From Clostridia bacterium (GTDB lineage Bacteria; Bacillota; Clostridia; Oscillospirales; Acutalibacteraceae), in contig JAFSCE010000005.1 of assembly GCA_017436915.1 (NCBI GenBank), forward strand, positions 1-64,000: a stretch of DNA of 64,000 nucleotides. Reading direction: 5' to 3'. Positions 23,048-26,675 of this stretch are shown one piece after another. The notes beneath the pieces were generated by a model, which was not told where the DNA came from, ran no database searches, and was given only the letters and a program-made list of their open reading frames with translations. Numbering within the stretch: the stretch's first letter is position 1; each line of letters starts with the position of its first letter. A program made the position numbers and the translations under genes.

Positions 23048-23395
23048 ATGACCATTGCAGATGTTCAAAAAATCCTGAAAGCGGAACTGGTATGCGGGGA
23101 GGACCTCTCTGCCGAAGTTCACAACGCGTGCGGCAGCGATATGATGAGTGACGTGCTTGCTTTCGTGAAAGACCAATCCGTTTTGTTATCGGGTCTGGTT
23201 AACACGCAAGTGATACGCACCGCCGAAATGATGGATATGCTGTGTGTCATTTTCGTGCGCGGCAAAGAGCCGACCGCCGAAATGATCGAACTTGCCAAGG
23301 AGTTCGACATTGTGTTAATGAAGACTCCGCTTCGTATGTTTAACGCCTGCGGCCTGCTGTATGAAAACGGTCTGCGCGGCGGCGACGGAATATGA
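23048..23395 (+). CDS. DRTGG domain protein (first of two)
   Basis: A 115-residue stand-alone DRTGG domain, related to the nucleotide- or phosphate-sensing DRTGG module of some pyrophosphatases and phosphotransacetylase-like proteins. The fold pattern includes VCGEDLSAEVHNACGSDMMS near 16-36, a VLLSGLVNTQVIRTAEMMD hydrophobic strand-helix region and IVLMKTPLRMFNACGLLYENG at the end. It starts at ATG 23048. It opens a tight operon with an RsbW-like ATPase and a HydS-like iron protein, so it may sense a ligand for that module. No enzymatic motif is visible. Confidence 0.82.
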   Translation: MTIADVQKILKAELVCGEDLSAEVHNACGSDMMSDVLAFVKDQSVLLSGLVNTQVIRTAEMMDMLCVIFVRGKEPTAEMIELAKEFDIVLMKTPLRMFNACGLLYENGLRGGDGI

Positions 23396-23404
23396 GGTGA
23401 TGAC

Positions 23405-23821
23405 TTGAAACTGCATTATGAAGTGGCAGGCGATGATTTCACCCGCGCCGGTGAAGCATCGGGTGCTGTCAAAGCCACGTTAAAGCGTTTGGGCTTTCCC
23501 GCTGACGTGATCCGCCGCGTCGCGATCGCGATGTATGAAGGCGAGATCAACATGGTCATTCACGCTGACGGCGGTGTTGCAGATGTGGAGATCGAGCCCG
23601 ACCGTATTCTCGTCACGCTTACCGACCGCGGCCCCGGTATTCCCGACGTGGAAAAAGCCATGCAGGAGGGCTTCTCCACCGCGCCCGAAAACGTGCGCAA
23701 TTTGGGCTTTGGCGCCGGTATGGGCTTACCCAACATCAAACGCTATACCGACGACCTTAAAATCGATACCGAGATCGGAAAAGGCACTTGTATTCGCATG
23801 ACGATCAACGTGCCTTCTTAA
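23405..23821 (+). CDS. RsbW-like HATPase (anti-sigma factor type) protein
   Basis: A 138-residue single GHKL ATPase domain of the RsbW/SpoIIAB type. The N box is in AMYEGEINMVIHA near 44-56, G1 is TDRGPGIPD near 79 and G2 is LGFGAGMGLPNIKRYTD near 103. Such proteins bind sigma factors or phosphorylate antagonist proteins, but no STAS partner or sigma gene is adjacent. It uses TTG 23405 as start, behind GAGGTGATG, nine bases after the DRTGG gene. It may be the output of the redox-sensing cluster; that is inference. Confidence 0.85.
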   Translation: MKLHYEVAGDDFTRAGEASGAVKATLKRLGFPADVIRRVAIAMYEGEINMVIHADGGVADVEIEPDRILVTLTDRGPGIPDVEKAMQEGFSTAPENVRNLGFGAGMGLPNIKRYTDDLKIDTEIGKGTCIRMTINVPS

Positions 23822-23838
23822 CATAAGGAGCGTTGCTT

Positions 23839-25077
23839 ATGATATCACATTCCGTAACGCTGGATACCGAAAAATGCGTGGGTTGTACGCATTGTGTTAA
23901 ACGCTGTCCCACGCAAGCGATCCGTGTGCGCGACGGCAAAGCCGTTATCACGGATGCACGCTGCATTGATTGCGGCGAATGTATCCGCGTTTGCCCCCAT
24001 CATGCCAAAAAAGCGCGGCACGATTCGTTGTCGGCGCTGTCTGACTACAAATATACCATTGCCCTGCCCGCTCCCGCACTGTATGGGCAATTCCATAATC
24101 TGGACGATATCGACGTGATCTTGTCCGGGCTTTTAAAGCTCGGCTTTGACCAGGTGTTTGAGGTGTCCCGCGGTGCGGAGATCGTGTCGGATGCCACCCG
24201 CAAGGTCATGGCAGACGGTTTGGTCAAGAAGCCCGTTATCAGCTCAGCGTGCCCCGTGGTCGTGCGGCTGATCCAAATTCGTTTTCCGGAACTGTGCGAA
24301 CACGTTTTGCCGATGAAAGCACCCATGGAGGTGGCGGCGGCAATGGCGCGTCAACGCGCGATGGCACAAACGGGGCTTTCCCCCTCCGACATCGGTGTTT
24401 TCTTCATTTCCCCCTGCCCCGCCAAGGTCACGGACGTGCGCTTCCCCACCGGCAATTCGCACTCACAGGTAGACGGCGTACTGTCGATTGCCAATATTTA
24501 TCCCAAGCTGGTACACGAAATGGATCACCTGGATCAGGTGCAACCGTTATCCCATTCGGGGCTCATCGGCACCAGCTGGTCGTTTATCGGCGGTGAGGCA
24601 GCCGGCCTGCTCAATGAAAACCATTTGGCGGCGGACGGTATCCAGAACGTCATTCACGTATTGGAAGAATTGGAAGACGAAAAACTCACCGACCTGGATT
24701 TCATTGAACTCAGCGCTTGCGCCGGCGGTTGTGTCGGCGGCGTCTTCACGGCGGAAAACGGGTACGTCGCCCGCGCCCGCATCAAGCGTCTGCGCAAATA
24801 CCTGCCGATCTCCTGCAACCGCGCCGAGGATATCGGTGACCTGCGTTCGCTGAATTGGACGGAGTCATTGTCGGAAAACCCGGCACTGCGCCTCGCTGAA
24901 AACGTCAGTGACGCGATGCGCCTGATGCAGGAAGCAAACGCAATCTACGAACAGCTCCCGAAGCTCGATTGCGGCGCATGCGGCGCGCCTACCTGCCGTG
25001 CCTTGGCAGAGGATATCGTGCGCGGGCTTGCCGATAAGAGCGACTGTTTCCGTATGGCAAAGGAGGAATCTATATGA
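23839..25077 (+). CDS. HydS-like [FeFe] hydrogenase homologue, probably non-catalytic
   Basis: A 412-residue soluble protein: two ferredoxin-type [4Fe-4S] motifs at the N-terminus (CVGCTHCVKRCP at 13-24 and CIDCGECIRVCP at 42-53), an iron-hydrogenase large-subunit domain, and a C-terminal CGACGAPTCR site near 380-390. The four H-cluster cysteines appear retained: C138 in SSACP, C193 in SPCPAK, C294 and C298 in ELSACAGGC. The proton-relay cysteine that precedes C138 in catalytic enzymes is Ala137, and the L2 methionine is Ser. This pattern is described for sensory group C (HydS-type) hydrogenases rather than enzymes that turn over hydrogen. No PAS domain is fused here. ATG 23839 follows AAGGAG. 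It overlaps the next DRTGG gene as ATGA. Confidence 0.83.
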   Translation: MISHSVTLDTEKCVGCTHCVKRCPTQAIRVRDGKAVITDARCIDCGECIRVCPHHAKKARHDSLSALSDYKYTIALPAPALYGQFHNLDDIDVILSGLLKLGFDQVFEVSRGAEIVSDATRKVMADGLVKKPVISSACPVVVRLIQIRFPELCEHVLPMKAPMEVAAAMARQRAMAQTGLSPSDIGVFFISPCPAKVTDVRFPTGNSHSQVDGVLSIANIYPKLVHEMDHLDQVQPLSHSGLIGTSWSFIGGEAAGLLNENHLAADGIQNVIHVLEELEDEKLTDLDFIELSACAGGCVGGVFTAENGYVARARIKRLRKYLPISCNRAEDIGDLRSLNWTESLSENPALRLAENVSDAMRLMQEANAIYEQLPKLDCGACGAPTCRALAEDIVRGLADKSDCFRMAKEESI

Positions 25078-25412
25078 CCGTCCGTGAACTGATAAGCGCA
25101 TTATCGTTAGAAACGCTCGTCGAGGGTGATTTGGACCGTTCCGTCACCGGCGGCTACTCGGGCGACTTGCTCAGTTGGGTCATGGGCCGCGCCAAAGCCG
25201 GGGATGCCTGGTTTAGCGTGATGGGCAACGTCAATGCCGTTGCCGTTTGCGTACTGGCGGATGTCGCGTGTCTGGTTTTGTGTGAAAACGCCGCACTGGA
25301 CGATGCCGCTCGCACCCGTGCAGAGCTGGAATCCGTCACGATCCTGCGCAGCACCTCTACCGCATATACACTTGCCGGTGCCTTGAGCGCCCGCTTAGAA
25401 AGGACTGTATAA
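25074..25412 (+). CDS. DRTGG domain protein (second of two)
   Basis: A 112-residue DRTGG domain that overlaps the HydS-like gene by four bases, so it is translationally coupled. It has VEGDLDRSVTGGYSGDLLSW near 16-36, AWFSVMGNVNAVAVCVLADVA near 44 and a VTILRSTSTAYTLAGALSA end. The GGYSGDLLSWVM segment is more typical of the family than the first copy. The two copies flank the ATPase and the iron protein and may form a heteromeric sensor with them. No function has been shown for such stand-alone domains. Confidence 0.84.
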   Translation: MTVRELISALSLETLVEGDLDRSVTGGYSGDLLSWVMGRAKAGDAWFSVMGNVNAVAVCVLADVACLVLCENAALDDAARTRAELESVTILRSTSTAYTLAGALSARLERTV

Positions 25413-25413
25413 C

Positions 25414-25887
25414 ATGTCTATTGAACTCGTCCGCCCGTTCCTTGCTAAGTTCGGCAGAGAGCAGGACATTCAGGAATTCACCGTTTCCAGCGCCACCGTG
25501 GAACTCGCGGCAGCGGCACTGAACGTCATCCCCGCCCGCATTGCCAAAACCATGTCGTTTGCCGACGGTGAAGGATGCTTGGTGGTTGTCACCGCGGGCG
25601 ATACCAAAATCGATAACCCGAAATATAAGCAAACGTTCGGCTTTAAAGCCAAAATGCTCTCACCCGATCAAGCGTTGGCGTTAACGGGCCACGCCATCGG
25701 CGGTGTCTGCCCGTTTGCCTTACCCGAAGGTGTGCGCGTTTTCTTGGATGAATCCCTGCGCCGCTTTGATACAGTGTATCCCGCGGCAGGCAGCTCCAAT
25801 TCGGCAATTGAAGTCACCCCTGCCCAGCTGGAAGAATACACCGGCGGTATTTGGGTAGACGTGTGCAAATTACGAGAAGAAACGTGA
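25414..25887 (+). CDS. YbaK/EbsC-family aminoacyl-tRNA deacylase
   Basis: A 157-residue YbaK domain. It has ELAAAALNVIPARIAKTMSF near 25-45, a VVTAGDTKID strand, the KYKQTFGFKAKMLSPD segment, and the signature TGHAIGGVCPFALPEGVRVF near 95. These proteins hydrolyse misacylated tRNA, such as Cys- or Pro-type mischarges, in trans. It starts two bases after the second DRTGG gene, embedded in the redox-sensing operon where it has no obvious link. Substrate specificity cannot be assigned. Confidence 0.88.
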   Translation: MSIELVRPFLAKFGREQDIQEFTVSSATVELAAAALNVIPARIAKTMSFADGEGCLVVVTAGDTKIDNPKYKQTFGFKAKMLSPDQALALTGHAIGGVCPFALPEGVRVFLDESLRRFDTVYPAAGSSNSAIEVTPAQLEEYTGGIWVDVCKLREET

Positions 25888-25888
25888 T

Positions 25889-26629
25889 GTGTTGTCATTG
25901 AAAATTTACTACGATTTTCATATTCACTCTTGTCTCTCCCCCTGCGGTGACGACGAGATGACACCCAACAACCTCGTCAACATGGCGCAACTTGCGGGGC
26001 TTAACGCAATCGCGCTGACCGACCATAATACCTGCGGCAACTGCGCGGCGGCGGCAACGGTCGCCGAAGAACTCGGTATGATCTTTTTGCCCGGTATGGA
26101 ACTGTGTACCGCCGAGGAAGCGCACGTTGTGTGCTTATTCCCCAACATAGAAGCCGCAGAACGATTTGAAGCGCAGATTGCTCCCACGTTGCCGCCGATC
26201 CAAAATCGACCGGAGATCTTCGGCGAACAGATTTTATGTGATACGGAAGATCGTCAAGTCGGCACGAAAGACATCCTGCTTACCACCGCGTCCGCCATCA
26301 GCGTGGACAGTGTGGCGAAGCTTGCCCGTTCATGCGGCGGCACGGCGTTCCCCGCACACATTGATCGTCCGTCATACAGCGTCACCGCCGCGCTTGGTGA
26401 CCTGCCGCCGCTCGGTTTTGCGGCGGTTGAGATCACCAAAAATGGCAATGTGGAAGAACTGTCTTCCCGTTATGCCGAGATCGTCGGAAAGCCACTGTTG
26501 CAAAATTCCGACGCTCATCATCTGGAGGATATTCAGGACGCGGGCCCCTATCTTGACCTGCCGGATAATTCTCCCGAAACCATCATCGCCGCTTTAAACG
26601 GCGAGATTCCTTTTACCTGGCAACGCTGA
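25889..26629 (+). CDS. PHP-domain phosphoesterase
   Basis: A 246-residue PHP hydrolase with metal ligands in DFHIHSCLSPCGD near 8-20, ALTDHNTCGNC near 42 and LPGMELCTAEE near 68, and further ligands FPAHIDRPS near 150 and LLQNSDAHHLEDI near 206. PHP proteins cleave phosphoesters of nucleotides or small metabolites; the substrate is unknown. The start is uncertain: GTG 25889, TTG 25892 and TTG 25898 are all in frame, the last giving a protein that begins with KIYYDFHIH. It closes the DRTGG/HydS-like operon, an association I also recall from other Clostridia. Confidence 0.85.
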   Translation: MLSLKIYYDFHIHSCLSPCGDDEMTPNNLVNMAQLAGLNAIALTDHNTCGNCAAAATVAEELGMIFLPGMELCTAEEAHVVCLFPNIEAAERFEAQIAPTLPPIQNRPEIFGEQILCDTEDRQVGTKDILLTTASAISVDSVAKLARSCGGTAFPAHIDRPSYSVTAALGDLPPLGFAAVEITKNGNVEELSSRYAEIVGKPLLQNSDAHHLEDIQDAGPYLDLPDNSPETIIAALNGEIPFTWQR

Positions 26630-26637
26630 TAAAACGA

Positions 26638-26675
26638 AAAGCACCTGTGGATTACCACAGGTGCTTTCTTTATAC
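26638..26675. terminator. Terminator between the PHP gene and malic enzyme gene
   Basis: AAAGCACCTGTGG pairs with CCACAGGTGCTTT around an ATTA loop, with T-rich 3' and A-rich 5' flanks. It probably serves both convergent operons. Confidence 0.9.

Follow-up and report, generated by a model that had tools for sequence, protein, structure and literature searches.

The characterised group D (M2e) [FeFe]-hydrogenase homologue, TamHydS of Thermoanaerobacter mathranii, is a slow and reversible but real hydrogenase (PMC8163306). H2 triggers a change of secondary structure in TamHydS and does not reduce its C-terminal cluster; the same 2026 study describes the interaction partners as unknown and calls the identification of group D partners critical (PMC13104023). 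Published features of the group are the lack of a PAS domain, a C-terminal cluster and the residues at positions 299 and 353 (PMC8163306), and M2e genes are known to lie close to a gene for a histidine/serine kinase-like HATPase and upstream of HydABC (PMC3561251, PMC3608648, PMC8163306). A sensory hydrogenase without PAS is therefore already known. Here we analyse such a protein, HydS, encoded in a six-gene run on the first 64,000 nucleotides of contig JAFSCE010000005.1 from a gut Clostridia bacterium (the window), together with a SpoIIAB/RsbW-like ATPase (RW), two stand-alone DRTGG proteins (D1 and D2), a YbaK-type protein and a PHP-family protein. We propose that HydS, D1, D2 and RW belong to a cytoplasmic redox-signalling unit of anaerobes, in which HydS as sensor acts on D2, RW and D1 and so tunes the ferredoxin/NADH/H2 node; we put the chances of this reading at about even. 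Gene order kept across the phylum, natural gene fusions and a family that keeps the set without maturases carry the proposal.

The six open reading frames named in the original prediction were all confirmed, head to tail on the plus strand between 23048 and 26629, and the Pfam and NCBIfam matches agree with it. Where neighbouring genes do not overlap, the gaps are at most 17 bases. The run is bounded upstream by divergent serC and downstream by a terminator-like hairpin (Table 1).

HydS comprises a Fe_hyd_lg_C domain with two [4Fe-4S] motifs at the N-terminus and an FeS motif at the C-terminus; Pfam finds no PAS domain, as in group D and not as in group C (M2f), where PAS is fused. The H-cluster cysteines lie in the motifs SACP, SPCPAK and SACAGGC, and all four are kept in each of 145 aligned HydS proteins. 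The C-terminal Cx2Cx4Cx16C motif (C378-C403) recurs in 146 of 147 proteins. Alanine replaces Cys299 and serine Met353 (CpI numbering), the latter position being Ser or Thr in 142 of the 145. In a tree built without the TamHydS sequence, a fully supported split divided the window HydS from the group C proteins that bear PAS. By these sequence features HydS is classed as a group D (M2e) homologue like TamHydS, with which it shares domain order, absence of PAS, the C-terminal motif, loss of Cys299 and the change of Met353 to Ser/Thr, and, as genomic context, a HATPase neighbour and, in most genomes, HydABC nearby (PMC8163306, PMC3561251). Unlike the TamHydS context, the set in the window genome stands apart from HydABC, and HydF and HydG were not found there; the TamHydS literature also differs from our loci in that these have two DRTGG proteins and PHP as constant partners, and include a maturase-free family. 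Group C proteins such as TmHydS have the sensor core and C-terminal cluster in common with HydS, whereas their PAS and output domains are fused and those of the window set would be separate proteins. The expectation that a PAS-less HydS would have possible output modules as separate proteins was borne out. HydS had also been called probably non-catalytic. The protein does not imply this, as the four cysteines, the Glu and Lys358 are intact and TamHydS of the same group is active (PMC8163306); the window copy may lack maturation for another reason, namely that searches of its lineage found neither HydF nor HydG. At two loci both kinds of sensory hydrogenase lie side by side: group C HydS proteins fused to PAS-sigma54 activator-helix-turn-helix (L102:15519-18185) and to PAS-HisKA-HATPase (L113:14372-16681) are encoded close to the group D operon.

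We compared 80 related loci, a set skewed to close relatives, and 59 loci from a phylum sample of 398 genomes, spread over 43 families; most genomes were metagenome-assembled. The order D1-RW-HydS-D2-PHP is near universal in both sets. Among the assessable phylum-sample loci, RW immediately precedes HydS in 55 of 58, while PHP follows downstream in 48 of 58; a DRTGG gene lies upstream in 46 of 57 and another downstream in 45 of 59, and a HydE-type ATPase is present in 47 of 57. Because RW and PHP keep their places across the phylum, the clustering is beyond chance, and the statement that parts of the order recur in other Clostridia, beyond this one genome, proved correct. In 44 of 52 loci HydA or HydB is no more than 12 kb away, mostly in one operon, which continues as NuoE(HydC)-HATPase(HydE)-HydD-NuoF(HydB)-HydA, the bifurcating hydrogenase. 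As a rule, then, the set forms the upstream half of a HydABC operon, a point that the original prediction missed. In the window genome the HydC-HydE-HydD-HydB-HydA genes are on another contig, C9 (L153:9837-14901). At one locus (L134) rnf genes follow the module in place of hydABC (RnfC and RnfB confirmed by Pfam), and two more (L135, L140) resemble it by weaker matches. The HydE-type ATPase was assigned by gene order to the HydE that we take to belong to hydCEDBA operons of the Acetobacterium woodii type. As there, it is a second GHKL ATPase encoded with HydABC; unlike there, in one family (f38, below) it travels with the sensory set where HydABC is absent. No recurrent DNA-binding gene or conserved upstream regulator gene was found beside the module in the surveyed loci. 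A second type of cluster occurs in family f29 (L126 and L146, genomes G289 and G018), where HydS-DRTGG stands directly before NuoE-NuoF-HydA and RW, PHP and HydE are lacking.

Gene fusions were observed at several junctions. D1 and RW form a single open frame at L102 and L109, in two families, as do HydS and D2 at L113 and L144, in two genomes of family f43. RW is fused to HydS in one genome (L143), and PHP to the HydE-type ATPase in another (L132). By the usual gene-fusion reasoning, contacts are therefore predicted along D1-RW-HydS-D2, with D1 a predicted partner of RW and D2 of HydS. In the open-access literature we found no earlier report of these fusions or of a maturase-free family, and no description of two DRTGG proteins and PHP as constant group D partners. 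The ATPase and HydABC neighbours of group D were known; the fusions and the maturase-free family appear to be new.

Both DRTGG proteins score slightly below the Pfam cut-off of 25.2 bits (Table 1). AlphaFold2 models were made for D1 and PHP. The D1 model (predicted local distance difference test, pLDDT, 91) has as its best structural match 2ioj, annotated 'Pfam DRTGG', with a template modelling (TM) score of 0.83, and the sub-threshold call was accepted on account of this fold. D2 is assigned to the same family from its sequence. The D1 fold is common to the DRTGG domains of CBS-pyrophosphatase (3l2b, 3l31) and AF1212 (2ioj) and to the N-terminal domain of HPr kinase. Unlike those domains, D1 and D2 stand alone, and some genomes fuse D1 to a kinase-like ATPase and D2 to a hydrogenase-like sensor.

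Family f38 bears most directly on the signal. Its five genomes (G028, G295, G379 and two that are 99% complete, G173 and G223) keep D1-RW-HydS-D2-PHP-HydE-type ATPase with no hydABC beside the set, and in four of the five, unrelated convergent genes come after it. HydS is the sole PF02906 protein in each. HydG and HydF are absent from all five at curated cut-offs, in searches that covered these two maturases. Lys358, which we take to hydrogen-bond a cyanide of the [2Fe] site, is present in 139 of the 145 aligned HydS proteins and replaced by Gln in exactly the five f38 proteins; the remaining protein has Glu. Residues that hydrogen-bond the [2Fe] site are conserved in sensory types (PMC10055695). 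Despite K358Q, none of the four H-cluster cysteines is lost in the f38 proteins, the cluster motifs at both their termini are preserved, and the ATPase boxes of their RW are intact. In a quick tree they form one nested, derived clade inside group D. Loss of the maturases thus coincides with loss of Lys358 while the signalling proteins are retained. Since f38 keeps the module without maturases, function of the module need not depend on the [2Fe] subsite. The simplest reading of these sequences is that f38 HydS is a [4Fe-4S]-only redox sensor, and the module probably reads redox state, with H2 an optional input. The protein with Glu at position 358 is a long-branch HydS (L141:6931-8244, genome G368) whose L3 motif is altered to RACTCGC; only RW adjoins it, and the genome has several other [FeFe]-hydrogenases.

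HydG and HydF were likewise not found in the lineage of the window genome (G000) and its relatives G404 (L003), G405 (L004) and G406 (L005), nor in G417 (L017). The window genome still has an intact HydABC operon with intact HydA motifs, and both maturases are present in G407 (L006), the closest such genome. Either hydF and hydG were recently lost or they were missed in all four assemblies; after a recent loss, neither HydABC nor HydS could carry an H-cluster. A serine in the HydA L1 motif (TSCSP), considered as a sign of decay in the window genome, was rejected as universal in these HydA proteins. In four further genomes (G337, G408, G412, G421) the absence of HydG was not taken as loss because HydF is present.

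RW has the sequence boxes EGEINMVIHA, DRGPGI and GFGAGMGL, with the Glu and Asn of the N-box and both G1 and G2 kept, as expected of a working GHKL kinase. Its closest solved relatives are SpoIIAB structures, and its best NCBIfam model is spIIAB (TIGR01925). These likenesses, and seven sigma70 region-2 matches in the window genome, speak for an anti-sigma partner switch, in which a sigma factor kept inactive by bound RW is freed by HydS upon a change in H2 or redox state. We consider this unlikely. The TIGR01925 match (56.3 bits) is far below the curated cut-off of 135, and D1 has the DRTGG fold, not that of STAS. The window genome has three HATPase_c_2 matches (one under cut-off) and one STAS protein, which, judged by gene order, is SpoIIAA, tied to the spoIIA operon beside SpoIIAB and SigF; no STAS or sigma gene lies in or beside the module in any lineage surveyed. 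RW thus shares the GHKL family, the N, G1 and G2 boxes and the size of the SpoIIAB/RsbW anti-sigma kinases, and differs from them in that its associated genes encode an Fe-S sensor and DRTGG proteins and no STAS antagonist or sigma factor. The original prediction, that the cluster could sense hydrogen or redox state and set the activity of a sigma factor or phosphorelay, fares differently in its parts: the maturase-free family favours redox sensing, and control of a sigma factor by partner switching finds no support, though RW might still bind a sigma factor directly.

PHP (pLDDT 95.6) has EndoQ, RNase AM and a nucleotidase as its closest folds, and keeps the His, Asp and Glu residues that we presume to bind metal. 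Given this resemblance to nucleotidases and nucleases, its modelled structure suggests that the substrate may be a nucleotide. A role as protein phosphatase opposing RW was considered and, given these folds, is not favoured. Two extra cysteines in the first metal motif (HSCLSPC, with HTCLSPC in a single protein) are invariant in 17 of 17 aligned relatives and could make PHP redox-sensitive. YbaK had been counted as part of the cluster. It is not conserved there across loci, being seen only in the nearest relatives and, at L075, upstream of D1; it is an insertion in their operon, outside the conserved module.

The intergenic region shared by serC and D1 holds a Rex-operator-like palindrome, one of only two sites in the genome with at most one mismatch. 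A Rex-family DNA-binding domain is encoded in the window genome (a 211-residue match on contig C30). Across all loci the enrichment before D1 is modest: four sites with at most one mismatch were observed, against 0.04 expected, and with up to three mismatches the numbers are 27 and about 11. Elsewhere, serC-serA operons are Rex targets (PMC8579813, PMC6391272). The candidate operator may serve D1, divergent serC or both. A second Rex-like DNA-binding N-terminal domain occurs in a 59-residue open frame (G000:C11:32570-32713). Outside the locus, the window also contains a thiamine pyrophosphate (TPP) riboswitch at 335-438 (Rfam RF00059, 74 bits).

Table 1. Features of the HydS locus in window coordinates (aa, amino acids)
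Feature	Position	Strand	Evidence or location
D1, stand-alone DRTGG protein, 115 aa	23048..23395	+	Pfam DRTGG 23.5 bits; fold; fusion to RW
RW, SpoIIAB/RsbW-like GHKL ATPase, 138 aa, TTG start	23405..23821	+	HATPase_c_2 49.2 bits
HydS, group D (M2e) [FeFe]-hydrogenase homologue, 412 aa	23839..25077	+	Pfam, motifs
D2, stand-alone DRTGG protein, 112 aa, overlaps HydS stop	25074..25412	+	Pfam DRTGG 21.1 bits; fusion to HydS
YbaK-type editing protein	25414..25887	+	YbaK/tRNA_edit 88.7 bits
PHP-family metallophosphoesterase, 246 aa, GTG start	25889..26629	+	Pfam PHP 32 bits; AlphaFold2 model
Rex-operator-like palindrome CTGTTAAAGTTTTAACAA, 1 mismatch to TTGTTAANNNNTTAACAA	22951..22968		serC/D1 intergenic region
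Terminator-like hairpin, 14-bp stem	26637..26668		Between PHP and convergent malic enzyme gene

In the mechanism that we propose, HydS would be the sensor, its [4Fe-4S] chain accepting electrons from reduced ferredoxin and also, in hosts that mature the H-cluster, from H2. A changed redox state or conformation of HydS would be passed to bound D2 and RW. RW would hold D1 as its regulatory partner and act as an ATP-dependent kinase or as a binding switch. The output would tune the ferredoxin/NADH/H2 node beside the usual site of the genes (HydABC, sometimes Rnf), and PHP and the HydE-type ATPase would contribute to this pathway as well; the product on which they act might be a nucleotide or phosphoester. 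Several points weigh against this mechanism. The ferredoxin input is read solely from architecture, and in the open-access literature we found no biochemical data on RW, D1, D2 or PHP. The H2-free version is seen in one family and could be a local re-use, and the RW-HydS and PHP-HydE fusions come from one genome each. The closeness of PHP to nucleases and nucleotidases fits poorly with a simple kinase/phosphatase pair.

Since the association with HydABC is strong, a HydABC-specific role may still apply in most species. The proteins would then form a dedicated regulator or assembly factor acting directly on the bifurcating hydrogenase, by phosphorylation or by cofactor or subunit assembly, with HydS reporting local H2. 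The usual shared operon and the fusion of PHP to the ATPase of the hyd operon fit this account; a set without HydABC in f38, before rnf at L134 and unlinked to HydABC in the window genome does not, and we regard it as somewhat improbable. A strict H2 sensor, for which H2 binding at the H-cluster would be the sole physiological signal and f38 a decaying relic, appears very unlikely. The universal cysteines, the prevalence of Lys358 and the response of TamHydS to H2, including its structural change (PMC8163306, PMC13104023), are what one would expect of such a sensor. Against it, four genera-level f38 samples retain every gene of the set, with cysteines and ATPase motifs unbroken, f38 branch lengths are in the usual range, unlike decay, and neither HydF nor HydG was found in the lineage of the window itself. 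Slow H2 turnover by group D enzymes (PMC8163306) would also suit a minor metabolic hydrogenase with chance or transcriptional neighbours, an explanation that is scarcely credible when the order is kept over 43 families, fusions occur and the set persists where no H-cluster can be made.

The redox-signalling reading can be extended, tentatively, to a new class of ferredoxin-redox signalling in which HydS, its [2Fe] subsite dispensable, drives a SpoIIAB-like kinase, a DRTGG protein takes the regulatory place of STAS, and H2 sensing is an option where the H-cluster is matured. Together with the conserved order, the fusions name RW, D1 and D2 as candidate partners of group D proteins. The maturase-free family makes it testable whether 'sensory hydrogenases' respond to hydrogen or to the redox state of ferredoxin in the cell. 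The set occurs widely among anaerobic Clostridia of the gut and the rumen, habitats in which the flow of hydrogen bears on fermentation and methane.

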